In this document: piece after piece, positions 7,400 through 60,400 of the stretch | How the letters are laid out: each line of letters begins with the position of its first letter | Numbering within the stretch: the first letter of the stretch is position 1 | Assembly (NCBI GenBank): GCA_001247695.2 | Contig: LGRX02025851.1 | Location: forward strand, 42,346-106,345 | DNA from: Cymbomonas tetramitiformis | Taxonomy: Eukaryota > Chlorophyta > Pyramimonadophyceae > Pyramimonadales > Pyramimonadaceae | DNA length: 64,000 nucleotides | Reading direction: 5' to 3' | Notes under the pieces: generated by a model | The model's input: the letters and a program-made list of their open reading frames with translations, nothing else | Databases searched by the model: none | What the model was told of the DNA's origin: nothing | Position numbers and translations under genes: made by a program

Positions 7400-8472
7400 G
7401 AGCACAGGTAGTGAGGCGACTGATGGTGCACGCTGGCTGCAGCCTGGAGGTTGCACAGCATCGTGATACTTTACATTATGAAGGAAGAAGGGGTGGGGGC
7501 ATTGAGCCTAAGCCACACCAGTTTAAAGTGGGTGACTTCGTCTACATCAGACAGAAGCCTCGCAGCGGCATGGAAGTCGCGACCAAGTCCGCCATTCTGA
7601 AGCTGGTCAAGATACAGCGAGATGGTGTTGTGGTGCTTGAGGACGCCACCAAGTTAAGGGAAAAGAGCACTGTGCAGAGCATCGCGCCATGTCACCTGCA
7701 GGTGAAGGACCAGTATGACTGCAGTGCAGCCGTGCCCAGCAGACACCTTGCATGTGAAGTGTGCAGGAAGACTGATGGGGAAGCAGAGATGTTGTTGTGC
7801 GACGCGTGCAACAAGGGGTACCATTTGTGGTGTCTTACCCCAGCATTGGATGAAGTACCAGAAGGCGAGTGGCTATGTCCTAGGTGCTCAGGCACGAGGA
7901 TGCAAGCTGCTAGCGCTGAGGTACAGACCCAGGAAACCAAGAGTTCTTGTGTCCTGGAGGACAGATTGGGGATGAAGGAGCAGCAATTGAATGAGAAGCT
8001 GTCCTCAGACATGCGCCTGCTGCCAGCAGACGTGGGTCCCCGTCGTGTGGTGAAGGGAGACAGATTTCAGCCATGGCATGCTATCTCATCAAGGGAGATG
8101 CTATTGGAGGAGAAGGACATGTTCCTCTGCGTGCCAGATCAGATTGATTGGGGTAGACAGGACAAACTCTCCGAGGCTGTGCAGATCTTCATGCCAGGGC
8201 ACTGGAATGAGGGCCATCGCACCGTGCCGAGCAAGAAGTACCGGGAACAGAAAGCAATGGCAAGGCAACTGAGGGATGCACCTCTCGTGCCTGCTTTGGC
8301 TGAAGAAAAAGTTGAAAAACGAGGAGAATTGAGACATATGACTAAGGCTCAGGTGCGCGAAGCTAGCGCACTGCAGTGGGGGCTTGAGCTGGTCATCACG
8401 GTGCCTTCCGAGGTGAGGCGCTTGGCGACAGAAGTGGACTGGAAGTCCATCGATGGCGTGTGGGACCCATAG
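7340..8472 (+). CDS. Integrase C-terminal domain fused to a PHD finger
   Basis: Frame 1 takes over from the integrase frame. It first reads the usual integrase tail (ARVKDLLLRAQVVRRLM, then FKVGDFVYIRQK, a GPY/F-like barrel). A canonical PHD finger follows at 7753-7887: CEVC, then CDAC, GYHLWC and CPRC, with the conserved Trp of GEWLCPRC. PHD fingers read histone-tail modifications, so this module could steer integration or bind nucleosomes; that is inference from the family. The rest (to 8472) has no recognised domain until DWKSIDGV near the end, which leads into the methyltransferase-like domain of the next feature in another frame. Confidence 0.8.
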
Positions 8473-8992
8473 GCAGGTACGTGGGGTCATCAGTGAGGTG
8501 ATGGTGGAGCAATGGCCGCAATTGAGATTTATGAATAATGACTGGAATTCTCAGCTGGGTTGGTCTGAGGCGCATGACGCACTTCAGCCAGGTAACTATC
8601 GCATATGGAAGGAGAAGTATGGTGTCTGTGATGCCGTGGTGACTTCACCCTGGTTTGCAGCGCTGGATATCGCGTTTCCATTGGCAGTTATGGCCAGTCG
8701 TGTGGTGGCATGTGTCCATGTTCCTTTTTACTATTTGACAGACATGACCGAGAGCAGAGCTGCGTACTTCAGACGATTGAGTTAGTCTGGACGCTTGCAT
8801 GTGATTGGACATCTAGAACATGGACCTATTGGCCGCAGATGCATGTGGGTTTTGGTGTTCAAGAACCCTCTGGTCAGAGCCAGGATGTTACAGGATGGAG
8901 AAGGTGAAGGCATTGGTATGTTCACTTTCAGTTTGGGCAAGTTCATGGCGGATGGTGATACGACCCAGTATGCTGAACAAGCCCACATTTGA
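8440..8992 (+). pseudogene. Decayed amino-methyltransferase-like domain
   Basis: Frame 2 reads a domain with the layout of a class I SAM methyltransferase: a glycine motif right after DWKSIDGV (frameshifted near 8465; GTHRQVRGV), then NNDWN about 25 residues on, then VVTSPWFAALDIAFPLAV (about 8636-8690). Amino-methyltransferases have (D/N/S)PP(Y/F) at this place; here it is SPWF, so a proline is replaced. The frame then has TAG at 8777-8779 but continues in phase with GRLHVIGHLEHGPIGRRC up to 8992. I read this as a decayed N6-adenine or N4-cytosine methyltransferase-like module. It could also be a structural, non-catalytic relative. Function in this copy is unlikely. Confidence 0.45.
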
Positions 8993-40103: not shown

Positions 40104-40574
40104 ATGCAGTTCCAACGACTGAAAGATAAACCATATGATATTCAAGTGCCAAAGAGTTCAGCGTTTCCAATTGACACACCCGATGATTTTATTCAATTGC
40201 ACGGGGTCATATTAGCGTGTGCGAAACGTGGTACGGGAAAATCGTGTAGTCTTACACACCTACTTCGATTGATGCAGCAAAACCGTGCTCTAGACAGATT
40301 GATTCTTGCGAGTCCGACTTATCATAACAATATGCATTATTACAAAGACTTACCGCTTGATGAAGGTGATGTATTAGAGCCTACCGTCGATGTCCCGCAA
40401 CAGATTGAAGGTATCCTTGATACCGAAGCTCAAGAGTATGATGAATATCAAGAGAAGCTAGAACGTTATAAGAAGGTAATGAAAATGTTAAACAATAATA
40501 ACATAAGTGTGTATGAGATTCCGGGTGAATTGCTATTGGAATTTGGTGATGAGAATGGAAACATTCTCCCTCCC
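40104..40574 (+). CDS. Packaging ATPase, N-terminal part (split by LTR element)
   Basis: The FtsK/HerA-type genome-packaging ATPase of polintons and related viruses. Walker A is ILACAKRGTGKSCSL (about 40205-40250), followed by RLILASPTYHNN. The frame is intact up to the LTR element at 40575, where it meets the target duplication CTCCC (40570-40574). The remainder of the gene, with Walker B, resumes at 54334. The enzyme would use ATP to translocate the genome into capsids. The gene shows no other damage, so the insertion is what killed it. Confidence 0.8.
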
Positions 40575-41267
40575 TGTGCCCGGAGGCACAGCGTGAGCCA
40601 ATATGTCTATGCGTCCGTATGTGTGTCATCGGGGGTAATCTGGGATTGGCACGATGACAGTGAAATTGGGCTTGAAATCACGATGAGAATGAATACCAGA
40701 TGTCCGGGGTATGACAGTATGACACTATGACACTATGACAGTATGACAGTATGACACTATAGTAGTATGACAGTACTGTGGGGGGTGTCATCGTGGAACT
40801 CAGTCAGACCCTCGAAGAATGGTCAGATTCGCATCGGGGTTGAAAAGACAATGAAATCGAATATCAGATATTAAGGTTATGACAGTATGACAGTATGACG
40901 CTATGACAGTATGACAGTATGACAGTACAGTAGTATGACAGTACTGTGGGGCAGTCATCGTGTCAGCCTGTTGGCATAACATCTGAATCGAGAATGACGA
41001 ATCGGAATTAGAAATGAGATCGGATCGGGAACTGAACGTTGAGCCGAAGTGTGACATCGGCTCTCGAGTGGTTGACCCTGCAACCTGAGTGACGAGTGAA
41101 TAAGTAGAGCACTTGAGAAGTGTTTAGCCTTCAGAACTCGGAACCGAATTATCGTTTGCACCTCAATCTGGCCCTGATCCAGTATATTATAAAAATCCGA
41201 ATTGTGTACCTTTGCACGTTCAATCAAAAACATATCTCCGAGCATCTGTCGTCGTGCCCCTGGCACA
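40575..41267 (+). repeat. 5' LTR of the dual-methyltransferase element
   Basis: 693 bp, TGTGCCCGG...GGCACA. It contains arrays of TGACAGTATGACAC(T)A units and a TATA-like TATTATAAAAAT at about 41185-41196. It matches 53604-54328 except for small repeat-number differences. Confidence 0.9.
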
Positions 41268-41269
41268 TT

Positions 41270-41280
41270 TGGTATCAGCG
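41270..41280 (+). other. Primer-binding site (initiator tRNA-Met type)
   Basis: TGGTATCAGCG starts two bases after the LTR. The first eight bases equal the usual initiator-tRNA-Met primer site of plant gypsy elements. The element at 55327 has the same site at 56085 with the same two-base gap. Confidence 0.75.
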
Positions 41281-42021
41281 TGCTGCGATTTCGCCTCTGC
41301 GCAACTCGCCCACGGGCCTTTTGAAACTTCCGTTGTGATACAGGGGGAGAGCTGCACTTCCGGCTATCTGGGCGCAATTTTAGCCTCCGTAAGTACATTT
41401 TTTTTCGTATACAACGGCCGTATCCTTTGGAAAACATCTCCAAAACTTCATATTTTCGTCCCTTAACACTGGGGGCTCAACCAGGCTCAGAAAAGTCAAC
41501 ATTCGTTTTCCGATCTTAAACTCCAAGTCTGCCCCAGGCTACAAACAACCGTCAGGGAGCACCCTAAAGGGTTTCCCCGGTTTATAGTAGCCAGGAAAAC
41601 CTCATAGCCCACTTTCTAGAGCCTTAAAAAGGCGAAAAACAGCCAAAAACAGCCCAAAATAGCCGTTTTAGCCCGTTTTCAGCCTACCCCAAAACCTTCC
41701 ACAGTAGCCCCCACCACCAAAAACTCCTTCCCCAGACCCCATAGGACACCCTAGAACCCCTCAATACCGCCCTCACGGCCACCAGCAGTTGGGAAAGCCC
41801 CTCAAAACAGCGCTTTTAGTGGCTTCTGGACAGTTCCTGGACAGTTTCTGGACACCTCTGGTTTACCCTCTGGCCGGAATATTTTGGGAGTGTACGAAGT
41901 CCGGTTACCTTCTGGGACCTTGCTGAGCTTTCTGGTTGCAGTTTCTTGACCCCTGCCTGCATACATAGGCACTTGAAATCTGTGTCGCGGAGCCCTGGCG
42001 AAATTTTGAGTTCGCCGGTGC

Positions 42022-42201
42022 ATGGCAGTACCCCCTTCGCCAGAAGAATACAGAAGAGCGTGGTGGAAACAAGGTCCCATCAAGTGGGTATTCCCCCCTG
42101 ACCCTACCTACCCACCAGCAGGCGCCTTCTGGCAGAGCGGTCCTTGGAGCGGTCCTCCTTCCCCCTCCTCCTCTTCAGACGACGAGGTGGAAGACAACTG
42201 A
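42022..42201 (+). CDS. 59-residue accessory ORF upstream of gag
   Basis: ATG 42022, TGA 42199-42201. Product AVPPSPEEYRRAWWKQG, then KWVFPPDPTYPP, then a Ser/Pro stretch and acidic tail DDEVEDN. It resembles the next frame (see 42202-42424): both have (A/x)(V/I)PP..YR.W..QG, a F.PDP..P segment and a Pro/Ser-rich acidic tail. The paralogy supports real coding. Function unknown. Confidence 0.4.
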   Translation: MAVPPSPEEYRRAWWKQGPIKWVFPPDPTYPPAGAFWQSGPWSGPPSPSSSSDDEVEDN

Positions 42202-42424
42202 GCGCCTGGACAGCATACACCCTGGCTATCCCACCAGCGCGCCACTACCGTGAGTGGTACTACCAGGGGTTCACGGTTTTCGTCTTCAACTACCCGGACC
42301 CTTACCACCCAGCAATACCGGTGCTTCCTGGTGAAACCTTGGCCGACGCTCCACCGTCTCCAGAAGTCAGCCCTACACCTTCACCTCCTCCTTCCCCCCC
42401 TCACGAAAGCGACACTGAATAAAT
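42202..42424 (+). CDS. Second accessory frame, paralogous to the first
   Basis: Frame 3, with no ATG of its own near the homology (open from 42144). It reads AIPPARHYREWYYQGF, then VFNYPDPYHPAIP, then a Pro/Ser tail ending ESDTE and TAA at about 42422. It parallels 42022-42201 in order of motifs. It may be joined to the first frame by splicing or frameshifting, or the pair may be a decayed duplication. Confidence 0.35.
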
Positions 42425-42505
42425 AAAGGCGAGCACTTCCTACCTTCTGCTCACCTGTGGCTTTTGCCACACCCAGCGTGCGATCTGATCAGCTCAGCAG
42501 CCAGT

Positions 42506-44611
42506 ATGTCGCAACATATATCAGAGTCCTTTCCCAGCATGGGGGTCAGTGCAGAGCCGTCACGCCCCCCATTGTTCTCGCCCCTCACCTTCCCATCGCC
42601 CGCCGCTTACGCTTCCGCTCACCCCATTCCACATCCGGGCACCACCATGCCCTACACAGCGGTGCCCCGCCCTTATACTATGCCGGATGGCACCCCCGCA
42701 CAGGCTGTATGGAACGGCGTCAATTGGGTATTGCCCCAATCAGCGCCCCTCGCTGGGGGAGTATCACCAGTGCCGTTCACACTGGGAACCCATCACCCCG
42801 TGGGCGCATATCCCACACCGTTCCAACAACAGCTACAGCAGCAGCAGCAGTGGCTCGCGTACCAGCAGCAGCAACAGCAGTGGCTTCAGCAGCAGCCACT
42901 GGAACCGATGCAGCAGCAGTTACAGCAGCAGCAGTTACAACAGCAGCAGTTACAGCAGCAACATCAGCAGCAGCAGCAGCAGCCACAGCAGCCCCATCAG
43001 CTGGCGCCAGCCACCTCCACGCTTCATGACTCAGGCGCGGATCCCTCATCGCTGCAGCACTTCATCAGCATCGGCGCCGCGGCCCTGCCGGACCCTCTGC
43101 AGGTACCCCTTGACAGCGGGGTTCAGCAGAACGTCTTGGGCGGTACCCAGCTCTTGGTGCGTCACCTTCCCGCGGTGGCGACAACCTCAGAGACTCGCCG
43201 GCGTCGGCGTTCCCGAAGGGCATCCTCGGGCCCTGCGACACATGGCAAGCATCTTCCAGGCCCAAGCCACGCACCTGATCACTCTGACCCCGACTCCGGC
43301 ACGGACATCAGCCGCACCAGCACGGGGACCAGAGGCAGCCGAAGCACGCAGGCACGGGCTGAGCGCAGGCGGAGGGCCGCCCACAGGTCCGGCTCTGACT
43401 CGGACGCGAGCAGCCGAAGTGAACACATTCGCAGAGAAGTCCTAGCGGCAGTACAGGCCCTGGACATCTCCGCGGTGCTCTCGAGAGGACTCGCGCTGCC
43501 TGGTGCGACGACATCGGCAGGAGCCTCCCCACCCGGCGACCCTCAGGGCAGCGCACAGGGCCTGACGGCGGACCATCTACACGAGGCAGACGCCGTCGCC
43601 AGCGTAACCCCTCCAGTGCCTCAGACCGCCGCTGAGACCGCTCCCGCCGAACCTCCCACTCAGGGCCGGCCAAATCCCCATAACATGATGGTGGCCCGCC
43701 GGCGACAGTCGATGGAGACGGTGGTGCACGGCGGTGGCAATCCCGACTCAGAGCCCAGAGACTCCAGTTCAAGCGACTCGCCACCAGGCCCCCCTAGTGA
43801 TCCACCTCAGGATCCCCCTGACGATCCCGCACCAGAGCCCTCCTACCCTCAGTACCCAGAGGTCAGAGCCCTCTTCGTCACCCACGATGGTGGGTCATTG
43901 TGGGTGCACCAGTCAGCTGGGGTGCGAGGCGCGGCAACCGTCTCCCTACCATGGGACGAACGCCGCCGGGCTGGGGTGCAGGGCGACGCCATCTTGTTCA
44001 GGATCATGCACCTGCTGGGAGCGCCGCTGACTGCATATGCGCGCATGGGGGGCCGGCTACACCATGCACCCCTACCCCTTACCAACCCTCGCGTGGAGAC
44101 CTGGGTCCTCATGGTCGACCGCGAGGTCATGGATATGGCAATGGGGGACCCAGCCGCGGCCAATGTGCGGTCTACCAGCATGGGGCAGCCAGTATGGGAG
44201 TGGATCCCTGCTACTGCGCGGGAGTCGGAGATGCAGAACTTCGATCAGGACGGGCTCGCCGCGTGGTCGGAGGTCAGCAACTCCGATTGGTACCGGAGCA
44301 TGAGCGTGGTGGCCGCACAACCATCCACACCCCTGCCCTTCCATACACCTCTCCCACTCCCCGCACCACCATCAGCCCCTACATTACCGCCCACTCCGAC
44401 CGCAGTCCCCACAAATCCCGCGCCTGCGCCTCCGCCCGCGCATGCCCCGGGACCACCACCTCCTGCCCGTTTCCCCCATTCCGCCGCCGCAAACCCCGTT
44501 CACTCTGCCGCTGCCGCGAACCCCGTTCACTGCCGCCGCTGCGAACCCCGTGCTCTCTCCCAGCGCCACCCCCTTTGTTCCAGGCATCGTCCGTCTGCCG
44601 CAGGGCACTAA
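42506..44611 (+). CDS. Gag N-terminal region: Gln-rich, Ser/Arg-rich
   Basis: ATG 42506 (MSQHISESFPS) is the first Met in a good position. A poly-Gln tract (CAG/CAA runs, 42826-42990) follows, then an Arg/Ser-rich part (RRRRSRRAS, RGSRSTQARAERRRRAAHRSGSDSD), a Pro-rich part and a domain of about 130 residues (RALFVTHDGGSLWVHQSAGV ... VWEWIPATARESEMQ). The frame ends in a Pro/Ala tract made of repeated AANPVHS-like units, where the capsid frame (+1) takes over between about 44450 and 44600. Either one base was lost or gained in the repeat, or the shift is used in translation. The Gag assignment rests on position and on the following frame. Confidence 0.55.
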   Translation: MSQHISESFPSMGVSAEPSRPPLFSPLTFPSPAAYASAHPIPHPGTTMPYTAVPRPYTMPDGTPAQAVWNGVNWVLPQSAPLAGGVSPVPFTLGTHHPVGAYPTPFQQQLQQQQQWLAYQQQQQQWLQQQPLEPMQQQLQQQQLQQQQLQQQHQQQQQQPQQPHQLAPATSTLHDSGADPSSLQHFISIGAAALPDPLQVPLDSGVQQNVLGGTQLLVRHLPAVATTSETRRRRRSRRASSGPATHGKHLPGPSHAPDHSDPDSGTDISRTSTGTRGSRSTQARAERRRRAAHRSGSDSDASSRSEHIRREVLAAVQALDISAVLSRGLALPGATTSAGASPPGDPQGSAQGLTADHLHEADAVASVTPPVPQTAAETAPAEPPTQGRPNPHNMMVARRRQSMETVVHGGGNPDSEPRDSSSSDSPPGPPSDPPQDPPDDPAPEPSYPQYPEVRALFVTHDGGSLWVHQSAGVRGAATVSLPWDERRRAGVQGDAILFRIMHLLGAPLTAYARMGGRLHHAPLPLTNPRVETWVLMVDREVMDMAMGDPAAANVRSTSMGQPVWEWIPATARESEMQNFDQDGLAAWSEVSNSDWYRSMSVVAAQPSTPLPFHTPLPLPAPPSAPTLPPTPTAVPTNPAPAPPPAHAPGPPPPARFPHSAAANPVHSAAAANPVHCRRCEPRALSQRHPLCSRHRPSAAGH

Positions 44612-45893
44612 CCTGCGAGCATCTCCAGACGAGGTCCGCCTGGAGCACAAGACCAAAGAGATGGTGCTAAAGCTGGTCAAGAGCGTCACCAGGTTCCCCC
44701 GCTCCGCGTCCGACACAAAATCGGCCGACAAGGAGGGCCTCCTGACGCAGCTGGAGCACTACTCCCACATGGTGCGGAAGGTATTCCAGGAGGCCATCGT
44801 GATCGAAGCACTGACCACTCCCAGTTGTACGCCATCAGTATCAGAGTACCAGGCGAGTGTGTCAAGCCTTCTTTGGAGCTTCAAGGAGTACACTCTTCAA
44901 GACCAGCAGAGGAAGTTCTTGGAGCGCGCGGCGGGGACCTTTGGGTCCGAGCAAGCTTGGCACCAACGCTACGGGGAGCTGGACGTGTTCTTCAGCGATC
45001 TGGCGGTGTGCTCTCTGACGCAGGCCTACCTGGAGAACGCACACGGCGAGGCCATTGCCCTGAAGCAGGCGGTGAACGAGACCGCGGCGGAGTATTTCTC
45101 GCGACTGGAGACCCGCATGGCCTCCGTCAACTTCTTGGCCGGCAGAGTCCCAAATTGCGTGGAGATGACCAACTTGTCGATGCTCTCTACGTACCGCCGG
45201 GGGCTGAAATATGCACCCAAGGTGATGCGGCGCCTGAGAGCCATCCACTTGGATGTCTCCAAACCAGAAGAGTGGGAGAGGAAGGCCGTCGCTGACGACA
45301 TCCCAGGCACCCACAACGCCTTGTTGAAGATTCGGGAAGTTGCTGAGGAGGTGGAGAGCGACATTGACACGGAGGCGGCTCAGAGGCGCTCTCAAGACCG
45401 TCCTCCCCGTGCTGTTTCCTTCGCTAACCCACCACCTCGCACCCCCTTCTACAGGCGTACCCCCTCTTCGAGCCGCCCAGCTCTTGCCATGCTGGAGAAC
45501 GGGCCTGCCACCACCGTCGCCGCGGCGGTGACTCCTTTGCCACCACCACCTGGCCTCTCCCGCCCTGATGCTCCGAAAGTCCGCCGGTGCTTCGCCTGCG
45601 GCTCTGCGGAGCACATCGTCCGTAACTGTACGGACGAGGCTAAGCTCAAGGAGTGGAGGGCCAATGCACCCGCTCGACTGGCGAACTCCCCTGGGTTTGT
45701 AGCCGCCGTCGTTTGGGCCATCGAGCAGCAGGAGGACATCTCCTCGGTGGATGGCGTCCCAGAAGAGTTCTCCGAGGAGGTCTTGGCTCTTGCTACCTGT
45801 GAGGACGACCAAAGCTACCAGACCCTGGCGGCCCTTGCGGGCATCGAGCTTGTGGAGGGTGACGGCCTTCCCCCGGTGGAGAGCGATGAATGA
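44442..45893 (+). CDS. Gag capsid and zinc knuckle
   Basis: Frame 3. The retrotransposon-Gag capsid region (about 44640-45330) has helices such as QQRKFLERAAGTFGSEQAWHQRYGELDVFF and AEYFSRLETRMASVNFL, the usual DFxxRF-like and IxxxL spacing. A classical CCHC zinc knuckle CFACGSAEHIVRNC follows at 45588-45629. The frame ends at TGA (45891-45893) followed by CTG. Pol continues in the same frame right after, so Gag-Pol may be made by UGA readthrough; UGA followed by C is a leaky context. The N-terminus overlaps the Pro/Ala repeat shared with the previous frame. Confidence 0.8.
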   Translation: MPRDHHLLPVSPIPPPQTPFTLPLPRTPFTAAAANPVLSPSATPFVPGIVRLPQGTNLRASPDEVRLEHKTKEMVLKLVKSVTRFPRSASDTKSADKEGLLTQLEHYSHMVRKVFQEAIVIEALTTPSCTPSVSEYQASVSSLLWSFKEYTLQDQQRKFLERAAGTFGSEQAWHQRYGELDVFFSDLAVCSLTQAYLENAHGEAIALKQAVNETAAEYFSRLETRMASVNFLAGRVPNCVEMTNLSMLSTYRRGLKYAPKVMRRLRAIHLDVSKPEEWERKAVADDIPGTHNALLKIREVAEEVESDIDTEAAQRRSQDRPPRAVSFANPPPRTPFYRRTPSSSRPALAMLENGPATTVAAAVTPLPPPPGLSRPDAPKVRRCFACGSAEHIVRNCTDEAKLKEWRANAPARLANSPGFVAAVVWAIEQQEDISSVDGVPEEFSEEVLALATCEDDQSYQTLAALAGIELVEGDGLPPVESDE

Positions 45894-48800
45894 CTGGCCG
45901 GCGGCCAGCCCCAGACCCTGCCCTTCGAGGAAGTGAGGTCTTGCCCTGATGATCAGACCCTCTCCGCCCTGGAGAAGCGGTCAGAACCAGTGGAACCCCG
46001 ACGCGCCCGAGGACGCAGAGACCCTTGGGGCCAACGTCCCCATCCCAAGAGCGTGGCCTTCACCTCTGGGACCCGCTTGCGACGCACCTACCGCTCAGCT
46101 GGTGCCCCATCGCCGCCGAGGGATGACTTGTCCAGCCACCCTCTTGCAGGAAGCACCCCCTTCGATGAGCCGTCGCTACCTCTTGATGACGGCCCTGCTT
46201 ATACACAAGCGAGGATCGAGGGTCGGAGGGGACGGCGAGTTCCCCGGCACAGACCCCCCATTATGGGCAGCAACCGCGGAGAGCCCCGCGACCTTCGCCC
46301 CCGACCGCGTGTTGTCCTACCGCTGCCCATCTATCAGTCCAACCTCGCAGACCCACGGAAAAGGCTAACTGCGTGGCACTGGAAGAGAGATCTGTACTCC
46401 CTCCCCCTCGAAGTCGCCATGCAGCAGGTCCGCAGAGCTCTGCGCAAGTCCCCAGAGGCTGCCAAGGACCTGGTGGATAAAATGTCGGAGCGCGTCCGCA
46501 GCCGCGTACACTCTGGGAGTCGATCGCCAAAGGAGCGCGTGAACCGCGCCAACCAGCTGGCAGAGAGGATACGCATTGCCCGCGAACCTCAAGATCGCAA
46601 GGAGGGCCATCAGCGAATAGCATTGTGGCACCTCCTTTCACACGACGGTCGCCAGCAAGTCCCCGAACCCTCTAACACCAGCTCCCACGACCTCTACGCG
46701 GCTTGGAGAGAGCTGTCGCCTGCCGAGCAGCAAAAGGCAATCGCCACTTCGAGTCCAGACTCTTCCCCAGGTAGCAGGCTGTGGGAAAAGGAGGGCGCAC
46801 GAAGAGCAGCAGCGAGGTCTTCGACATCCCTCTGCACCCTGGACACTGAAGTGGGCACGATACCTGGGACAGCGGGAGATGTGGGTTTACCTGGCGCCTG
46901 GTGCAGTCTGCACGCAGTACACCAGTACAAGATGAGGAAGCTGGGTCCCAGCCCCTTGGGAGCATCCCCTCCATCATCCTCGCTGGCCGAGCCCACAACA
47001 GAGACTACATCTTCACACCATGATAACGCGCCGGCCACTCCGGGAGGAAACCCCGAAGGTTCATCCTACTGCTCAGAGGCGGAGGAGCCCTCCGCACCCA
47101 GTTCGCTTTGCTTCACCCAGCAGATGACCACCGTCAGAACGCATGAAGCGGATGAAGCGCCACCCTGTCTCGACAGCCACCCCATCGCTGAAGACCCTGA
47201 GGTGATGGAAGAGGAGTCCTCGGTCAATTCGCTCTGCTTCACCCAGCAGATGGCAGCAGCTGGGACCCCTCAGACGAGAACTGACCACCAGAGCTCCCAC
47301 CAGCTCGCCCACAACTCCCCTGCTGGCAGCCCTCAGCATGACGAGGACCCTCTCACCCATGGCAGTCTCACCAATAGTGTCACTACACATGTGAGCCCTA
47401 CTACCAGTGACACCACCCATGTGAGCCCTACCACCAGCGACACCACTCATGTCAGCCCCACCTCGAGCGAATGCACCTCAGCGGGCACCCTGCTGACGGC
47501 GAGTGCAGACAACTTCGTCAGTCATCCGACTGAAGATGTTGATTTGCTGGATGAGGAGTTCTACGCCGCGTGTAGGCAAACGTTGGAAGAATGCCGCGAG
47601 GCCTCGGACAACCTCCTCCCCAACCTCAAGTGCAAAAGCATACGCACAGATGGGGGAGTTCGGTGGAAGACCGACATCGAGGGTACCCTTGCAGCGGCAC
47701 ATGACGAAGAAGGACCGCTACTGCTGGTATTCTACGCAACCCTCAGAGGGCACACGGTCAAGGTGCTGATTGACTCGGGGGCCTCTGACAACTTCATCTC
47801 GGAGCAGAGCGCTAAGCGATGTGGCCTCACAACACGAGCCGGCTCCGAGATGCGGGTCACCCTGGCGGATGGATCTGTGAAGATCACTGGCGCCACCGCG
47901 TACGCCAAGTTTAACACGCACACCACCACGGGCACCTATACGGAGAACGCCCTTGCCCTCCGGATCCTACCACTGGGCATACAGGTGGATGTTATCCTCG
48001 GCGGAAGGTGGCGGCGCAGTCACTCTCCTGTCACTCTGGGCTATGAAGGGAATGGCTCCGTCTCCTTCCTCAGGAAGTCCCGCAGTGGCAAGATTGGGGA
48101 TCGCGTCACCATCACGGGCTGTTCTCCTGGGAAAGCATCTGGGGACAGGTCTCCGAAGGGCACGGCCTGCGCGGGATTGGTGGATGAGGTGTTCCTGACC
48201 CCTGCTCAGCTGAAGAAGTACCTGGTGTATGCGGAGACGCAGAAGCTACGCGGCAATGACGACCCGGAGATACAGCCCGCCTGGCTCATGGTGGCCGAGA
48301 AGTCCCCCGACGATACTGCTTCTGCCTTTGCAGCCACGGCTATCGACTCTGAGAACGCCGAACCCGTTGCGGATACTGAAGATGCAGAAGTGAGCCCTGA
48401 GTGGACCCTCAAGTTTCAGGACTTCTGGGGTGAGGAGTACAAGAAGGAGATGACGACTGCTCTACCGAACATCGATGGCCTCAGACATGACCCCCAAGAT
48501 GAAGCCAACATTAACCTGGACCCTGAGCTGAGCAAGAAGGGACCTCCCTGCCAGCGCATCTACAAGAAGTCCGCAGAGGAACTCCGCCAACTTCGAGAAC
48601 GCGTGGAGACCCTGATGTTCAAGGGCTACATCCGACTCTCTTCCAGCCCTTATGCAGCTCCCTGTTTGATGGTCCCTAAACCCGGGAACCCCAAGGAGCT
48701 GCGACTGGTGATCGATTACCGGCTCCTCAACCGCCAGACAGTTAAGGACAAGTATCCTCTCCCAGACATCCAGATGATGTTCGACGAGATGCAGGGTGCG

Positions 48801-51800
48801 AAGTTCTTCTCTTCGTTCGACGCGGTGGATGGCTTCTGGCAAGTACCGATGGCACCAGGAGATGTTGAGAAGACCGCCTTCACCACCCAGATGGGGTCAT
48901 ATGAGTGGTTGGTCATGCCGCAGGGGCTGCAGAATTCACCGTCTCAGTACCAGCGACGGATGCAGCGGGCCTTGGGCCATCTCCCAATTGTCCGGATCTT
49001 CATCGATGATGTGGTCGTCTTCAGCAACACCGCTGCAGAGCACTACGAGCACGTCAAACAACTGCTCCTGACATGCAGGGAGAAGGGCGTCTTCCTCAAG
49101 AGGTCCAAGTGCCAGCTGTTGAAGAAATCCTTGCGGTTCCTTGGCCACTGTATCTCCGCAGATGGCTGCAGACCCCAACACGACAAGGTGGCTGCAGTGA
49201 GGGACTGGCCCGAGCTGGAGACGGTTACCCACGTCAGGCAGTTCTTGGGCCTAGCGGGGTATTACCGCAGGTTCATCCACTGCTTCTCCGAGATCGCTCA
49301 GCCCCTCACCCGGTTGACCAAGTCGGACGTACCCTGGGAGTGGGGTCCCATGCAGCAGTGGGCCTTCGAGGAGCTGAAGAAGGCCCTCACATCAGCGCCC
49401 GTGCTCGCCTTGCCCAACATTAAGGGTGCCGCAGACGGCACAGCACCTTTCGTGGTGCAGACGGATGCTAGCGGCATCGCTCTTGGGGGAGTACTGATGC
49501 AAGACAATGGAGATGGTCTTGGGCTGCGCGTGATAGCGTACGAGAGCCGCCAGTTCTCAGCCGCCGAGCAGAATTATCACACCGGCGAGCGTGAGCTAGG
49601 TGCTCTACACCACTGTACCACCGTCACCTGGCGGCATTACCTCATCTTCACCAACTTCCGCATCCAGGGTGATCACCGCCCTCTTGAATGGCTGATGGAA
49701 CCTGGCAGAGAGCTTAGCCGCAGACAGGCACGCTGGTACATGGATCTGGTGGAGGTGGGAGTCCCGAGAATGGAGTACATCAAGGGAGCGCTGCTGCTGG
49801 TACCAGACGCCCTGTCCAGAAGGCCCGACTTCAAAGACAAGGACGTTCGCGAGGGGTTGAAGGAGGCAGGAGTGATCGACCCCACCTCAGACCTGCCGAA
49901 AGACCCTCTGGCAACGCTGGAGTCTGAATGCTTCTCCAGCTCACCACCCGCAGCTCATCCCCACTGGGCCCAGACGGTTGACTGTTGGCTCTCAGCAGTG
50001 GAAACCCTCTCCGTGGCGGAACAGGCCATGGACATGGGGGAGACCATCGCTCTCGTTAATCCGAAGCTCTATAAGGGGATGAAGGAGGATCACCTCGACT
50101 TCGACATGCCTGACTGGCCTGAAGCTGATAGCGCGAAGCCGACAGAAGCTCCACACCAAACCCCTGACAGAGCTCCACCTCAGATAAGGATAACGAGGAG
50201 CATGTCACGCGCTGGAAGAGCCTCTACGACCCCAGCGCCTCCACAGTTGGCGTCACCGAAGACGCGAACGCCTACATCACGAGCTGACGCATCGGAGGCG
50301 CCCACTGAGAAGGTGCCAGTGAGCTCACCACCCCCGCAGCAGGCGCCCCAGCAGTCAGCTCCATCCCCGGTCCATCACCCGCAAAAACGGCAGACTCCCC
50401 CCGAAGACTCACAGAATTGGCGTGTCCGAGCAGAGTACTCCTCGAAGTACGCCGAGAAGTTTGGACCCTTCGATGTGGACGCCTGGTGTGACTTTGGCGG
50501 CCGCAACAGACAGGCGGATAGGTTCTGGACAGACTGCCTTTCAGAGAAATGGAGGGGCCTTCGGGTTTGGTGTAACCCTCCATATAACTCCAAGCACATT
50601 ACGGTGGAGGCGATTTTGAACAAGTATATCGCAGAATGGAAGGCAGACCCAGAAAACACCTCAGCAGTCTTCGTTCTACCAGATCACCAGTCCAAGCTCC
50701 CCGCGTGGCGCAAACTTTTCAGAAAGGCTAATATGCAGATCGTGGAGGTCATCCCTACTCACGATGATAAGGGCGAGCCCAATCAGTTCTTCGAGAACCC
50801 AGATGGGAAGGCCTTCGACCTTCGTTGGCCTGTTCTGATAGTACACGCCCCTCCCGCCAAACCACAGCCGGCACGCGTGAGGCACCCGCGAACGGCCCCC
50901 GCTGTGATAAGGACAGGTGAGGCAGCAGCCTTCAGAGACGCAACCTCCCAGCAGTCGGACTCAAAGTTCCTGCGTGCGTTGAAAGCGGAGTACACCCGAG
51001 AGGGGACACTTCGTTCGCTGCGAGAGAAAGTGAAGGCAGCACCACACCAATGCCTGCAGGACTTCAGGCTGGTGGGTGAAGTGGTTTGGAGGACCGCAGC
51101 AGGGAGATATCAGTTGGTGCTGGGGGAGGACTCTCCACTTCGAGAAGTAGTGATTCGCCATGCTCATGAGTCATTGTCCTCGGGTCACACTGGGCGAGAC
51201 AAGACTCTGGAGAGGGTGCTGCGACGCTTCTATTGGCGTGGTGCCGCGGAAGATGTGGGCACTTGGGTTGCATCCTGCGCAGTGTGCCAATCGGTGAGGC
51301 CGCGGGGAACTTACCCGGATGGGTTGCTAAACCCTCACAGCATCCCGAACAGGCCATGGCAGGATGTCGCGGTGGACTTCGTCACCGGCCTGCCGGTATC
51401 AGAGAGGGGCAATGATGCTTTCGTGGCCTTCACCTGCAAGCTGACGAAGATGGTCCACGTTGTGCCGATGAACTTCGGCGACAGCTCCGCAGCTGTGGTG
51501 GCCAGAATCTACTTTGACTCGGTGTGGCGCTTACATGGCGCGCCTATGAAGATTGTCTCTGATCGTGACCCACGGTTTCAAGATGCTTTCTGGCAGGAAC
51601 TCATGAGGCTGATGGGTGTGAAAGTGGCTCGTACCACGCCGTACAACCCTCGGTCTGACGGTCAGGCGGAACACAGCAACAGGGTTATTGAGGACATGCT
51701 CAGGTCCTTTGTTGACGCCAATGTGGAGGACTGGGATCTGTTCACCACTAACGTGGAGTTCGCGATCAATGACTCCAGGAGTGAATCTACTGGCTTCACG

Positions 51801-53414
51801 CCGTTTGAACTGGTGTTCGGGTTCTCGCCACTGTCGCAGTTGGATCTTTTCCTGGAGGCCGCGCAGTCCACCGCTGGACGACGAACTGGGGGAGTAGGCA
51901 CCGCACACGAAGTGGCTGTGAAATTTTCGTCGCAGCTGCGGGACGCCAGGCAGCGGTTGGAGCTGGCTCAACAGCAACAGCGCGAACAGTTTGATCGCAG
52001 ACACGGGCAGCGGGAGTATGCTGTTGGAGATCTGGTCTGGATAGAGGCGAAACACCTTACGGAGAAGGTGATGGATCGCTCCATCTGTAGGAAACTGACC
52101 AAGCGCTGGCATGGACCAGTTCCTGTGACCGAACGTTTCTTCAGCGATGTACAGATGACCATGCCAGAGGCCGACAGAGGAGCTCCAGTAGCCTACCGCC
52201 TACGCCTCCCTCCTCACTGGCGGATTCACGACGTATTCGCTCAACATCGCCTCAAACCGTACACCAGCGGTCAAGATGCTTTTGCCGCACGCGATCACCT
52301 AGCAGTACCTGAAGAGGTGGTAGTGGACGGTCAGAAGGAAGCACACGTTGAGCGTATCCTTGCACGTCGGGTGCGGTCTGTTCGAGGAAAGGAGGTGGAA
52401 GAGTGGAAGGTTCGCTGGACTGGCTACTCCAAAGCTCACGACCAATGGAGGACGCGTGACAAACTTGAACGCGGAAGTCCACTTCAACAACTTCGTGAAT
52501 TCGAGCAAGCGAGGCTGCACATGGAAGCGCAAGTCCGCGACGAAGCCACTCGGCGACGCGAGCAGCGTGGCCGCCACTCCGCTCAAGCCGGAATGACACT
52601 GGCCCACCTCATCACCAATCCCTGCGATGAACTGGACCAGCTCGAACAGATGGAAGATGATATCCCCCTGCCGTGGGAACGCCAAGAGCGCGTGGAAGAT
52701 GGGTCGTTGGCACTGGTGACAGAGCTGCTGGCAATACAGGCAAAAACACCCCGCACGCCCAGGATTCTCGTACTTTTCAGCGGTACTGGCTCAGTAGAGA
52801 GGGAATTCCTAAATTGCTTCCCCTCCGCCTCAGTGGTGACCCTCGACTCCGGACATATCTGGCAACCCACTCATGTGTGTGACATCCTGCAATGGGACTA
52901 CAGACAATACCCGCCTGGATTCTTCGATGTTATTTGGGCAAGTCCCCCCTGCAGGCAGTACAGTCAAGCGCGCACCACTGGTGGACCCCCTGACCTTCCC
53001 CAGGCTGACAAAATCGTACGACGAGCATTGCAGATCATTGACTACCTAGAGCCAAAACATTGGTTCATGGAAAACCCCAGAGGTCGCTTCCCTAACGCGT
53101 TACGGCTTCGCCCTATGATGCGCCAGCTTCCCCCACCGCTGGTGTGTACCTACTGCATGTATGGTACGCAGTACATGAAACCCACCTGCATATGGACGAA
53201 CTCAGCACCACCCTCGCCCCTGCTACGCTGTACTACTTCAACACCGTGTGCGTGCAGATGGGCAACTGGTGCTCATCCAGAGACTGCTCAGCTTGGACCT
53301 CACCCGCAGCAGACTGGAGCAGGTCGATCCGCGAGTGTATATCCCGTGCCAGCACTCCTGCTACGACAACTTTTCCGACATTTACGCCTCCGCGACACTG
53401 AAGACCCGCTTTAG
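45894..53414 (+). CDS. Pol: protease, RT, RNase H, Dam-type MTase, integrase, chromodomain, C5-MTase
   Basis: About 2,500 codons without a stop, in phase with Gag after one UGA. Order by nucleotide: long Ser/Thr/Pro-rich N-part with MTHVSPT-type repeats (to about 47.5 kb); aspartic protease LIDSGASDNF (47772); RT with LVIDYRLLN, MPQGLQNSP and catalytic FIDDVV (49002); RNase H with VVQTDASG, GERELGAL and GDHRPLEW (49450-49690); Dam-like N6-adenine methyltransferase with DVDAWCDFGG and catalytic NPPY (50574-50585); integrase with HxxxGHTG/CxxC and Asp (51371), Asp (about 51560), Glu (about 51668); chromodomain VERILARRV...WKVRWTGY (52340-52480); and C5-methyltransferase with LFSGTGSVER (52776), WASPPCRQYS (52935-52960), WFMENPRGR (about 53070) and GAHPETAQ. 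All key motifs are present. TAG ends it at 53412-53414. Confidence 0.9.
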   Translation: MAGGQPQTLPFEEVRSCPDDQTLSALEKRSEPVEPRRARGRRDPWGQRPHPKSVAFTSGTRLRRTYRSAGAPSPPRDDLSSHPLAGSTPFDEPSLPLDDGPAYTQARIEGRRGRRVPRHRPPIMGSNRGEPRDLRPRPRVVLPLPIYQSNLADPRKRLTAWHWKRDLYSLPLEVAMQQVRRALRKSPEAAKDLVDKMSERVRSRVHSGSRSPKERVNRANQLAERIRIAREPQDRKEGHQRIALWHLLSHDGRQQVPEPSNTSSHDLYAAWRELSPAEQQKAIATSSPDSSPGSRLWEKEGARRAAARSSTSLCTLDTEVGTIPGTAGDVGLPGAWCSLHAVHQYKMRKLGPSPLGASPPSSSLAEPTTETTSSHHDNAPATPGGNPEGSSYCSEAEEPSAPSSLCFTQQMTTVRTHEADEAPPCLDSHPIAEDPEVMEEESSVNSLCFTQQMAAAGTPQTRTDHQSSHQLAHNSPAGSPQHDEDPLTHGSLTNSVTTHVSPTTSDTTHVSPTTSDTTHVSPTSSECTSAGTLLTASADNFVSHPTEDVDLLDEEFYAACRQTLEECREASDNLLPNLKCKSIRTDGGVRWKTDIEGTLAAAHDEEGPLLLVFYATLRGHTVKVLIDSGASDNFISEQSAKRCGLTTRAGSEMRVTLADGSVKITGATAYAKFNTHTTTGTYTENALALRILPLGIQVDVILGGRWRRSHSPVTLGYEGNGSVSFLRKSRSGKIGDRVTITGCSPGKASGDRSPKGTACAGLVDEVFLTPAQLKKYLVYAETQKLRGNDDPEIQPAWLMVAEKSPDDTASAFAATAIDSENAEPVADTEDAEVSPEWTLKFQDFWGEEYKKEMTTALPNIDGLRHDPQDEANINLDPELSKKGPPCQRIYKKSAEELRQLRERVETLMFKGYIRLSSSPYAAPCLMVPKPGNPKELRLVIDYRLLNRQTVKDKYPLPDIQMMFDEMQGAKFFSSFDAVDGFWQVPMAPGDVEKTAFTTQMGSYEWLVMPQGLQNSPSQYQRRMQRALGHLPIVRIFIDDVVVFSNTAAEHYEHVKQLLLTCREKGVFLKRSKCQLLKKSLRFLGHCISADGCRPQHDKVAAVRDWPELETVTHVRQFLGLAGYYRRFIHCFSEIAQPLTRLTKSDVPWEWGPMQQWAFEELKKALTSAPVLALPNIKGAADGTAPFVVQTDASGIALGGVLMQDNGDGLGLRVIAYESRQFSAAEQNYHTGERELGALHHCTTVTWRHYLIFTNFRIQGDHRPLEWLMEPGRELSRRQARWYMDLVEVGVPRMEYIKGALLLVPDALSRRPDFKDKDVREGLKEAGVIDPTSDLPKDPLATLESECFSSSPPAAHPHWAQTVDCWLSAVETLSVAEQAMDMGETIALVNPKLYKGMKEDHLDFDMPDWPEADSAKPTEAPHQTPDRAPPQIRITRSMSRAGRASTTPAPPQLASPKTRTPTSRADASEAPTEKVPVSSPPPQQAPQQSAPSPVHHPQKRQTPPEDSQNWRVRAEYSSKYAEKFGPFDVDAWCDFGGRNRQADRFWTDCLSEKWRGLRVWCNPPYNSKHITVEAILNKYIAEWKADPENTSAVFVLPDHQSKLPAWRKLFRKANMQIVEVIPTHDDKGEPNQFFENPDGKAFDLRWPVLIVHAPPAKPQPARVRHPRTAPAVIRTGEAAAFRDATSQQSDSKFLRALKAEYTREGTLRSLREKVKAAPHQCLQDFRLVGEVVWRTAAGRYQLVLGEDSPLREVVIRHAHESLSSGHTGRDKTLERVLRRFYWRGAAEDVGTWVASCAVCQSVRPRGTYPDGLLNPHSIPNRPWQDVAVDFVTGLPVSERGNDAFVAFTCKLTKMVHVVPMNFGDSSAAVVARIYFDSVWRLHGAPMKIVSDRDPRFQDAFWQELMRLMGVKVARTTPYNPRSDGQAEHSNRVIEDMLRSFVDANVEDWDLFTTNVEFAINDSRSESTGFTPFELVFGFSPLSQLDLFLEAAQSTAGRRTGGVGTAHEVAVKFSSQLRDARQRLELAQQQQREQFDRRHGQREYAVGDLVWIEAKHLTEKVMDRSICRKLTKRWHGPVPVTERFFSDVQMTMPEADRGAPVAYRLRLPPHWRIHDVFAQHRLKPYTSGQDAFAARDHLAVPEEVVVDGQKEAHVERILARRVRSVRGKEVEEWKVRWTGYSKAHDQWRTRDKLERGSPLQQLREFEQARLHMEAQVRDEATRRREQRGRHSAQAGMTLAHLITNPCDELDQLEQMEDDIPLPWERQERVEDGSLALVTELLAIQAKTPRTPRILVLFSGTGSVEREFLNCFPSASVVTLDSGHIWQPTHVCDILQWDYRQYPPGFFDVIWASPPCRQYSQARTTGGPPDLPQADKIVRRALQIIDYLEPKHWFMENPRGRFPNALRLRPMMRQLPPPLVCTYCMYGTQYMKPTCIWTNSAPPSPLLRCTTSTPCACRWATGAHPETAQLGPHPQQTGAGRSASVYPVPALLLRQLFRHLRLRDTEDPL

Positions 53415-53589
53415 ATTTCCAAGTGGCACCCTTCTTCTTGAAAGTGGTGCCCTGGTAGCGGCAGGCAAACTATGCTCGAAGAGGAACCAGAGAACCTAAG
53501 AACTGGAAACAGCAAGGAACCAGAAAACCTAAGAACTGGAACTTAGATGGGTACCTTAGCGGAATGATCCCAGGAGGTAGACCACTCCT

Positions 53590-53603
53590 AAGGGGGGGAG
53601 AGT
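53590..53603 (+). other. Polypurine tract of the dual-methyltransferase element
   Basis: AAGGGGGGGAGAGT immediately precedes the 3' LTR at 53604, the expected place for plus-strand priming. Confidence 0.8.
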
Positions 53604-54328
53604 TGTGCCCGGAGGCACAGCGTGAGCCGATGTGCCTATGCGTCCGTATGTGTGTCATCGGGGGTAATCTGGGATTGGCACGATGACAGTGAAATTGGGC
53701 TTGAAATCACGATGAGAATGAATACCAGATGTCCGGGGTATGACAGTATGACACTATGACACTATGACAGTATGACAGTATGACACTATAGTGGTATGAC
53801 AGTACTGTGGGGGGTGTCATCGTGGAACTCAGTCAGACCCTCGAAGAATGGTCAGATTCGCATCGGGGTTGAAAAGACAATGAAATCGAATATCAGATAT
53901 CAAGGTTATGACAGTATGACAGTATGACGCTATGACAGTATGACGCTATGACAGTATGACAGTATGACAGTACAGTAGTATGACAGTACAGTAGTATGGC
54001 AGTACTGTGGGGCAGTCATCGTGTCAGCCTGTCGGCATAACATCTGAATCGAGAATGACGAATCGGAATTAGAAATGAGATCGGATCGGGAACTGAACGT
54101 TGAGCCGAAGTGTGACATCGGCTCTCGAGTGGTTGACCCTGCAACCTGGGTGACGAGTGAATAAGTAGAGCACTTGAGAAGTGTTTAGCCTTCAGAACTC
54201 GGAACCGAATTATCGTTTGTACCTCAATCTGGCCCTGATCCAGTATATTATAAAAATCCGAATTGTGTACCTTTGCACGTTCAATCAAAAACATATCTCC
54301 GAGCATCTGTCGTCGTGCCCCTGGCACA
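53604..54328 (+). repeat. 3' LTR of the dual-methyltransferase element
   Basis: 725 bp, TGTGCCCGG...GGCACA. It is about 32 bp longer than the 5' copy because of extra TATGACAGTATGAC units; otherwise nearly identical. It is followed by CTCCC (54329-54333) and the resumed ATPase gene. Confidence 0.9.
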
Positions 54329-54333
54329 CTCCC

Positions 54334-57400: not shown

Positions 57401-60400
57401 TGTGTCGTGGTGAATCGTTGCCGGCTGCACAGTATATATCGCCATTGCATCCGTATCATGATACCACCTTGGATATTGACGATTCAGCATCAGCTTTGTG
57501 CTATCCCGACCCGGATGATTCAGCCGATAACGTCGCAGTTGGTTGCATTTCTGATCATGGTGATGTCCCCGGAATTTTGTCTCCTTCAGTCGCATCTGTG
57601 TGCGCTATATCCGAAGTGCATACACTCGCAGAATCGTCACCAACTTCTCATCCAGAATGTTCAGCAGCCGCAGGACTACAAACTCCGTCTTCAGCATGTA
57701 TTACAATATCGTCATCAATGCGCGAGCTTGCCCATGGCGATGTTGCCTTGCATAGAGATGGTGCAACTGATGGTAATCATCACATAACCGACGGTGCAGA
57801 TGGTTATTGCACAACCGAATATTGCGCAGCTGCTGCACCAGCATCAGCATCATATGCTCTTCGTGTTTCTGACTTTTCGGTGCGATCGCAATCCTTGATC
57901 GCAAAGTTCAAACGGCTTCTTGCAATGTCTCAGCGGTTGCGGCAGCGGCGAGCTCGCGTTCATTTTGAGCAGCAGCAATTAATCGTCGGCAGTGATGAAA
58001 TTGGGTATAATACTTCATCAACAGTGTGGTCGCCGTCGCTCATTATGCTGGAAAGTGGCATGCACACACATACACACATACCTGATCGGTGCATCATCGG
58101 CAGGTGCGTGTGTTGCGAGTATTGTATATCATCAGCAGAATATCATTATAATGTCGACGGCCGTATATATTATCGGTGCATCATCGGCTTGTGTGTGCAC
58201 ACACACACTGGAGTCCGGCCATCGACGGCTTTGCTAGCGGCGCGTGATGCTGCTGCAACCGATAATAATGGCACATCATATTATTATACTGCCGACGGCC
58301 GTATATATGATCGGTGCATCATCGGCTTGTGTGTGCACCCACACTCTGGAGTTCGGGCATCGACGGCTTTGCTAGCGGCGCGTGATGCTGCTGCAACCGA
58401 TAATAATGGCACATCATATTATTATACTGCCGACGGCCGTATATATGATCGGTGCATCATCGGCCTGTGTGTGCACACACACTCTGGAGTTCGGGCATCG
58501 ACGGCTTTGCTAGCGGCGCGTGATGCTGCTGCAACCGATAATAATGGCACATCATATTATTATACTGCCGACGGCCGTATATATGATCGGTGCATCATCG
58601 GCCTGTGTGTGCTCACACACACCGGAGTTCGGTCATCATTGACGGCCTTGCCAGCAGCGCGAGATGATGGTACGAATTGTACTACCCTCCAGTGTGAGCA
58701 CACGGTGACAGAGTGCGCGTGGGTACGAGTGCATAAATATTGCTGCCAAGGGTGCGCACTCCCATGTGTATATGTGTGCAGCTGCATGATGACTGCCGAT
58801 GATACGCCGGCCGTGCGTGCGTACACACACGCACATATATATGAGGGGTGCACCATGAGTAGATGTGCAATACTTGAGGACAGCGTGCACATGCCGCACA
58901 CGTTGGCGGGACTTCCGCCGACGAAAGCGCACGTTGGAGCGCCATTGTTGGCGGTGCGGAATGGATTGTCGTCACGGTGTGCGCGGGCAGAAATTCCGGC
59001 GCCGGTGGCGCATGGTGCCGGAAGATCATCGTCGGCGATGCGTACCGGGCAATTATCATCAGGTTGTACACCGTTTTCTTCTGATGATCGTGACTCAACG
59101 TCAGCAACGAACTGCACCAGCAGCAGCGCTGAGATGCGGCCGCCCACGGCAGCGGCAACGAGCTGCCCGAGTAGAGGCGCTGAGCTGCGGCTGAGTGTGG
59201 TTGAAGCATTATACGACGTGGCTGCGCATCCTCATGATGAGGCTATGTGTATCGGCACTTATGGAGAATCTTCGTCGCCAGCATCATCGGCAATGATAGG
59301 GTGCGCGTGCGTACGTGTGCATACACATTGCTGCCACGGGTGCGCACTCCCATGTGTATATAATCGCAGCCGCATGATACCTGCCGATGATAAGCCGGCC
59401 GGAATGCATGGCCGAAGAGCATCCATAGCTAAAGTGCAGCCCCCACAGCTCGGCGAGGTGCGCCAAAGCTGCACGGCTGATAGCTGCAGAGTTGAGGTGC
59501 AGCAGCCCACGGCGCAAATGCAAGGCTGCCCCAGCTGCAGCGTCACCCAGTTGCCTCAGCAGCCCATGGCGCAAGCGCAAGGCTGCCCCAGTAGCAGCAG
59601 TGCCCAGCTGCCTCAGCAGCCCTTAGCGCCAGTGCAAGGCTACCCCAGCAGCAGCAGCTCCCAGCTGCCACAACAGCCCACGACACAAGAGCAAGGCTGT
59701 CCCGGCAGCAACAGTGCCCAGTTGCCGCAGCAGTCCACGGCGCTAGTGCAAGGCTGTCCTCGCAACAACAACGGCACAGAGCTGCCTCAGTGGGCCACAA
59801 CACGTGAGCTGTTCAGTGCAATGGCTAAAGACTCAGCAGCCCACGGCGCAAGTGCGAGTGTTGTTCCACAAGCAGTCCAGCACGTGTCACCCAGCGCGAT
59901 AGCTGAGTGTGCATGCATGGCGTGCGAGCGGGCCGACTTCGAGGTGGAGAGCGAGTGTGTTGCAACGGCGCATGGCAGCTGCAAGTTGGAGGAGCTGGTG
60001 GAGTGCGCAAGTGCGGAGCAGCTGCGGCAAGGCAGCCGGTGCGCTATGATAAAGTGCGCTTGTGTTGCAACGGCACAAGGCAGCTGCGAGCTAGCGGAGC
60101 TGGTGGGGAGCGTACAACGTGCAGCAGTATCGGCGCGGGCAGACAGCTGTTGTGAGCTGGCAGGGTGCACACTATGTGCCACAATACCGGAGCAGGCGGA
60201 CAGCTGTTGCAAGCTGGCGGAGAGTGCACGAGTGGCGCAAGGTAACAACGAGCTGGTGGAGTACGCATGCACGGCGTGCGAACCGGTAGACCTGGTTGGG
60301 TGCGCATGCGCGAAGCACAGCAGGTGCAAGGACCTTCGACTCCAGGTTCAACTCTTATGGCAGCAAGATCGTGACCAACAGATCCGAGAAGCCGAACGAG

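Follow-up and report, generated by a model that had tools for sequence, protein, structure and literature searches.

A Ty3/Gypsy-type retrotransposon of the green alga Cymbomonas tetramitiformis whose Pol carries adenine-type and cytosine-type methyltransferase domains together with a chromodomain

The green alga Cymbomonas tetramitiformis (Chlorophyta, Pyramimonadophyceae) harbors a Ty3/Gypsy-type long terminal repeat (LTR) retrotransposon whose single Pol polyprotein combines an adenine-type and a cytosine-type (C5) methyltransferase domain with a chromodomain, an architecture that we regard as virtually certain. Here, we examine a complete, 13.75-kb copy of this element, located at positions 40575-54328 of a 64,000-nucleotide stretch of contig LGRX02025851.1 (GenBank assembly GCA_001247695.2, forward-strand positions 42,346 to 106,345). 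This whole stretch is referred to below as the window; all coordinates are those of the window, and all features for which a strand applies lie on its plus strand. In a Pfam scan of the whole Pol, the domains follow one another in the order protease, reverse transcriptase (RT), RNase H, Dam-like methyltransferase, integrase, SH3 domain, chromodomain and C5 methyltransferase.

Pol occupies a stop-to-stop frame of 2,506 codons (45894-53414). Its catalytic core begins with an aspartic protease domain (Asp_protease_2, 47736-48005, with DSGAS at 47772), continues with the RT (RVT_1, E 2.5e-31, 48672-49148, with FIDD at 48999) and a Pfam-detected RNase H (49341-49751), and is then interrupted by the Dam-like N6-adenine methyltransferase domain (PF05869, 50385-50813, with NPPY at 50574-50585). 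The integrase follows, comprising a zinc-binding H2C2 domain (Integrase_H2C2, 51132-51305) and a core (rve, 51351-51671) that scores 23.5 bits, under the Pfam cut-off of 32.6, with the D,D-35-E residues in place. Downstream lie a Tf2-1-like SH3 domain (SH3_Tf2-1, 52182-52262), the chromodomain (Chromo, 28.6 bits against a cut-off of 25.1, 52344-52505) and the C5 methyltransferase domain (52740-53411, with FSGTGS at 52776, SPPC at 52941 and ENP at 53070). A preliminary description of this DNA had proposed a Pol frame with RT, RNase H and integrase motifs, an NPPY-bearing Dam-type domain placed after RNase H and ahead of integrase, and an SPPC/ENP-bearing C5 domain after a chromodomain, all of which held up. 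In the chromodomain of this copy, one aromatic residue of the typical cage seems, by eye, to be replaced. The N-terminal part of Pol also contains THVSPT peptide repeats spaced 10 residues apart (47385-47462), numbering three in this copy, five in the relative P0001 and six in P0002; this repeat number is probably the source of the difference between frames of 2,506 and about 2,535 amino acids.

Both methyltransferase assignments lie near the Pfam thresholds when the whole Pol is scanned, and both pass when the domain is scanned as a fragment; the lack of profile matches that the preliminary description had named as a refutation did not occur. For the Dam-like domain, PF05869 gives E 1.8e-6 and 28.1 bits on the whole Pol, exactly the cut-off of 28.1, and 33.6 bits on the fragment; for the C5 domain, DNA_methylase (PF00145) gives E 2.8e-4 and 20.8 bits on the whole Pol, just under the cut-off of 22, and 25.0 bits on the fragment. 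Against PHROGs, the Dam piece matches phrog_111 (DNA methyltransferase, E 9.5e-11), and the C5 piece, 238 amino acids long, matches the DNA methyltransferase profile phrog_757 (E 1.7e-17) across residues 12-212, both matches being clearer than those in Pfam. The C5 domain holds PPC, ENP and the S-adenosylmethionine (SAM)-binding FSGTGS, and its structure model shows the fold of C5 methyltransferases. The Dam model, of moderate quality and built from a 13-row alignment, shows the N6-adenine methyltransferase fold, with comparison scores of Z 9.2 to T4 Dam and Z 9.0 to M.TaqI. Chance motif matches for both methyltransferases were considered and are ruled out by the PHROGs profiles and the structure models. 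Sequence searches of solved structures returned nothing convincing for either domain: two aminotransferase sequences (E 0.034) and a regulator (E 0.16) for Dam, and SAM-dependent methyltransferase and plant-type DNMT1 sequences (E 0.63-0.8) for C5.

The fold comparison also bears on the substrate. The Dam-like domain might act on RNA, placing N6-methyladenosine on the genomic RNA of the element, with DNA left as the substrate of the C5 domain. We consider this division of labor quite unlikely: both matching families, PF05869 and phrog_111, are named for DNA enzymes, T4 Dam and M.TaqI, themselves DNA enzymes, lie only about 2 Z units lower in the fold comparison, and likeness of fold alone is no proof of substrate.

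As to the wider kinship of the two domains, relatives of the Dam domain accounted for one of 82 pattern matches in genome contigs and six of 61 in viral contigs, and relatives of the C5 domain for at least 586 of 600 pattern matches in viral contigs. The best 80 of the C5 viral matches were kept, and 42 of these, from IMG/VR viral contigs, entered a tree with 13 element domains. In this tree, limited to those two groups, the element domains stand apart on a long separating branch with an ultrafast bootstrap (UFBoot) value of 100, as read from the printed tree; the script line for the element clade gives 90, the label moving on re-rooting.

The preliminary description had named an assembly chimera as a possible source of the arrangement. 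A chimera, or a chance fusion of unrelated genes, has a negligible probability in our judgment, because Dam and C5 share a single open frame of 2,500 or more amino acids at no fewer than 12 loci, each on its own contig (counted by eye), a Pol that is 98-99% identical in both domains (P0001) occurs on a separate contig, 12,615 bases long, from a JGI record, and divergent relatives have the identical domain order. The nearest named proteins are C. tetramitiformis CYMTET_ models, with P0002 94% identical in Dam and 98% in C5. First-look candidates in the assembly numbered 7,509 for the Dam query and 8,348 for the C5 query, and the best 150 per domain were scored. All 150 scored copies of each domain are at least 98% identical to the query, 147 of the Dam copies and 149 of the C5 copies are free of stops, and 33 of the 150 Dam rows lie within frames of at least 2,400 amino acids (counted by eye). 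The retrotransposon family is abundant, with many near-identical copies.

More distant relatives extend this picture. Two Pol searches, each queried with one of the methyltransferase domains, yielded 29 related proteins (denoted by P numbers), of which 27 match Dam, 23 match C5 and 21 match both; because the searches used these domains, such fractions are uninformative on Pols generally. In three of the 21 (P0005, P0007 and P0029), less than 45% of the C5 domain is covered. P0013 to P0018 give no C5 match, P0013 to P0016 being Cymbomonas gene models that are possibly cut; P0027 has a C5 match and no Dam match, and P0028, presumably an ankyrin-repeat gene model judging by its Pfam list, contains part of a C5 domain but lacks Pol domains. 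P0025 and P0026 show 46-49% C5 identity, and the domains listed for P0026 include a PHD finger but not Chromo. Of the 27 Dam-bearing relatives, 25 retain NPP[YF], and 19 of the 23 C5-bearing ones have both PPC and ENP; the remaining four cover less than half of the domain. Among the aligned domains (14 Dam and 13 C5, window included), 12 of the Dam domains have NPP[YF], and all 13 C5 domains have PPC and ENP.

We read the relationships among these Pols as pointing to joint descent from one ancestor that had both methyltransferase domains, because the trees built from RT, integrase and C5 of 11 Pols are in near agreement and the tree distances are correlated (RT-C5 0.84, RT-Dam 0.95, Dam-C5 0.78; without P0025, 0.965, 0.84 and 0.84, respectively).

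Variation among the near-identical copies offers a second view of whether the domains are maintained. Ratios of nonsynonymous (N) to synonymous (S) change (omega) were calculated from variants present in at least two rows of a 41-row set, consisting of the window copy and 40 copies from the Dam list: 20 mostly with long frames (19 of the 20 at 2,400 or more amino acids) and 20 with frames under 1,715 amino acids; 31 of the 41 rows cover nearly the whole stretch. The expectation came from the singleton spectrum for this set, and from fixed weights for a second set, used for Dam, of 18 C5-picked copies plus the window. In the 41-row set, omega is 0.01 for RT plus RNase H (2 N, 77 S), 0.03 for the integrase (7 N, 99 S), 0.04 for the chromodomain (1 N, 12 S) and 0.10 for C5 (11 N, 47 S; p 4e-15 versus neutrality), and a linker control gives 0.40 (29 N, 31 S), itself below neutrality (p 6e-4). 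In the C5-picked set, omega for Dam is 0.11 (7 N, 24 S; p 2e-8 versus neutrality); a value of 0.02 (1 N, 26 S) from the 41-row set was dropped as biased because those copies were chosen by Dam score. Versus the linker, p is 9e-4 for C5 and only 0.02 for Dam, the latter comparing counts from different copy sets. Singletons also fall below neutrality, with nonsynonymous to synonymous counts of 42 to 67 in RT plus RNase H and 23 to 34 in C5 (41-row set) and 10 to 13 in Dam (C5-picked set). All these omegas and p-values are rough, because variants of related copies are non-independent and singletons are no clean neutral class. Judged by these substitution patterns, both methyltransferase domains are kept by selection in the element lineage.

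Because related elements kept both domains, the pattern suggests that the element uses methylation marks for its own benefit. At least one of the two domains is probably an active DNA methyltransferase. Following ideas put forward for DNMT-bearing retrotransposons, namely self-recognition, cDNA protection and the chromatin state at insertion (PMC5890265), Pol would be made as Gag-Pol through readthrough of an intervening TGA, and both methyltransferases would accompany the newly made cDNA in the particle or integration complex. The DNA of the element itself would be methylated either there or at the site of insertion, where the chromodomain would hold the integrase. Such marks would disguise or protect the cDNA and would determine the chromatin state of each fresh insertion, reducing harm to the host and, in turn, host counter-selection. 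Self-marking of this kind comes close to an even chance of being the main role of the domains. Its fullest form, in which the chromodomain would pick the chromatin while N6-methyladenine (6mA) and 5-methylcytosine (5mC) are stamped on each new copy as a two-base code, is doubtful; such a code may be independent of the host methylation machinery.

An alternative is that the enzymes serve as a weapon against giant viruses, polinton-like viruses or rival elements, whose DNA they would methylate. A weapon hypothesis for transposon methylases generally is already in print (PMC6338049), and the Cymbomonas genome is reported to contain numerous endogenous viral elements (PMC10675990). Pol enzymes, however, are presumably confined largely to the particle, and we consider this role very unlikely.

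Several observations weigh against self-marking by two working enzymes. Constraint on both methyltransferases, real by the above measures, is weaker than on RT and integrase. The Dam tree is weakly supported and deviates in places, as does the chromodomain tree. The window copy has a private substitution at a conserved Dam residue that is absent from all 18 other copies compared, so that Dam may be defective here; copies with an intact domain exist. Two of the 27 Dam-bearing relatives, P0020 and P0021, have SPPH or SPPC as their Dam motif with intact C5 motifs, and the adenine enzyme may have been lost first in some lineages. Finally, copies show no excess of CpG transitions: singleton transitions, which may include sequencing or assembly error, occur at 0.0665 per CpG versus 0.0650 per other C/G site, and shared-variant transitions at 0.0696 versus 0.0563, again no excess, with the context CCG highest (0.191) and ACG lowest (0.074). 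Heavy long-term CpG methylation of the copies is therefore unsupported. Pol has an observed/expected CpG ratio of 0.76, against 0.92 in the left flank and 0.88 in the right flank, and this mildly lower value would, taken alone, fit a little CpG loss. The missing footprint would also be compatible with methylation at other motifs, with transient marking of the cDNA or with efficient repair.

The missing CpG signature and the two altered Dam motifs also fit a reading in which the domains are non-catalytic and act as nucleic-acid-binding or structural modules of Pol. In the same direction, the environmental relative P0018 has NPPY and a C-terminus that is weakly C5-like (hhalign probability 14.9, E 0.0018) and lacks PPC and ENP, a weak indication of a dead C5 domain, and PMC3537659 describes the adenine methylase of one class of DIRS1 elements as inactive. 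Against this stands the retention of catalytic motifs: NPPY is found in 41 of 41 rows of the Dam-picked and hence biased set and in 19 of 19 rows of the mostly C5-picked set (18 copies and the window); among the 36 covering rows of the 41-row set, 34 have SPPC and 35 have ENP; and the C5 motifs are retained across relatives and aligned domains as noted above. On balance, non-catalytic domains are unlikely, and we favor enzymes of which at least one would be active.

The element itself is a complete and fairly recent single insertion, as indicated by its LTRs, the CTCCC on both sides, the primer site and the purine tract. The 5' LTR (40575-41267) and the 3' LTR (53604-54328) both start with TGTG and end with CACA, and their alignment of 725 columns has 685 identical and 32 gap columns, leaving 8 substitutions in 693 aligned bases. 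Identical CTCCC target-site duplications adjoin them on the left (40570-40574) and right (54329-54333). Two bases past the 5' LTR lies a primer-binding site (41270-41278, TGGTATCAG, complement CTGATACCA), which we take to be of the initiator-Met tRNA type, and a polypurine tract (53590-53602, AAGGGGGGGAGAG) lies upstream of the 3' LTR. These paired LTRs, the 5-bp duplication, the primer site and the polypurine tract mark a Ty3/Gypsy element, as does the Pol order of protease, RT, RNase H and DDE integrase with H2C2; by domain order, the chromodomain C-terminal to the integrase would place it among chromoviruses. Membership in the DIRS class was considered and is ruled out by the DDE integrase domains in Pol; a Pfam scan of three frames gave no match to a tyrosine recombinase. 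Upstream of Pol, a Gln/Pro-rich open frame (42419-44611), without a Pfam match, is followed in a different frame by a Gag-like open frame (44304-45893, first ATG at 44442) with a CCHC zinc knuckle at about 45585-45632, whose zf-CCHC score of 18.4 bits is under the Pfam cut-off of 20.8. Gag and Pol share one frame and are separated by a TGA (45891-45893) followed by CTG. All 10 other copies compared have this TGA CTG, but their sequences are 97-99% identical in that stretch; the TGA is likely a readthrough site.

Elsewhere in the window, a second retroelement (1811-8472) encodes RT, RNase H, a C5 methyltransferase (PF00145 31.5 bits, GFPCQDLS) and integrase in that order, with one in-frame stop (5285-5287) and a PHD finger in another frame. 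By these matches it is a second C5-bearing element within the same 64 kb; no alignment was obtained between its C5 and that of the Pol described here. An open frame at 35453-36466 matches phrog_67 (DNA methyltransferase, E 1.5e-14) and, with 24.2 bits, falls under the cut-off of 26.7 for N6_N4_Mtase (PF01555); on this profile evidence it is a third methyltransferase-like gene in the window, and the frames beside it gave no Pfam matches. A short frame (8417-8785) contains SPWF in an adenine-methyltransferase-like context, as seen by eye, and showed no significant family (phrog_3906 E 0.059; no Pfam match). To the right of the element, tandem repeats at 58140-58637 and 59500-59784 comprise repeats with a spacing of 138 bp (3 copies, 94-100%) and 57-bp repeats (5 copies, 65-100%).

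Retrotransposons with a single methyltransferase are already puzzling, because methylation normally silences retrotransposons. Here, two unrelated chemistries are retained together in one polyprotein, beside a chromatin reader, across elements with widely diverged RTs. The idea that such parasites write their own epigenetic marks is testable, as Oxford Nanopore data exist for this alga (PMC10675990), 5mC and 6mA could be read on the same molecules, and the near-identical copies, of which the best 150 per domain were scored among thousands of candidates, can serve as replicates. The system also bears on whether eukaryotic 6mA can come from mobile elements rather than host enzymes.

In the open-licence papers searched, we found no description of both methyltransferases in one Pol or element, in agreement with the preliminary description, which had called the combination of two chemistries and a chromatin reader undescribed. 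To our knowledge, an adenine and a cytosine methyltransferase have not been described together in one element. The capture of C5 methyltransferases by retrotransposons, by comparison, has precedents in a charophyte and in dinoflagellates (PMC5890265), as had also been pointed out. The closest likeness is KnitGypsy-Dnmt3 of the charophyte Klebsormidium nitens, an LTR Gypsy element with a Dnmt3-related C5 domain inside Pol that is reported to be under purifying selection (Ka/Ks, the ratio of nonsynonymous to synonymous substitution rates, below 0.2) (PMC5890265). Its C5 is related to Dnmt3, whereas the best profile found here is the phage family phrog_757, and the account of KnitGypsy-Dnmt3 in PMC5890265 mentions no adenine methyltransferase. 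SymbioDIRS-Dnmt3 and SymbioLINE-Dnmt of Symbiodinium are likewise retrotransposons with a cytosine methyltransferase but belong to other element classes, with one methyltransferase type each (PMC5890265).

Dam-bearing DIRS elements resemble the present Pol in that their Dam-like domain comes immediately behind RT and RNase H (PMC3266345, PMC5890265), and this common order suggests DIRS elements as a candidate origin of the Dam domain. They differ in their tyrosine recombinase and other terminal repeats, in place of the DDE integrase, LTRs and 5-bp duplication found here, and the accounts in PMC3266345 and PMC5890265 name no C5 domain for them. In Cymbomonas itself, a chromodomain Ty3/Gypsy element related to Chlamyvir chromoviruses has been reported (PMC10675990); it shares the host and a Gypsy Pol with chromodomain, although the word methyltransferase is absent from the main text of that paper. 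The first Cymbomonas genome paper noted three scaffolds of more than 10,000x coverage coding for sequences similar to chromodomain, RNase H and cytosine DNA methyltransferase (PMC5741210). These scaffolds are probably fragments of the present family or of a sister family, although that account does not describe them as one element and mentions no adenine methyltransferase. C5 in a Gypsy Pol and Dam in a DIRS Pol are therefore each known separately, and what appears to be new in the Cymbomonas element is the presence of both in one Pol with a chromodomain.
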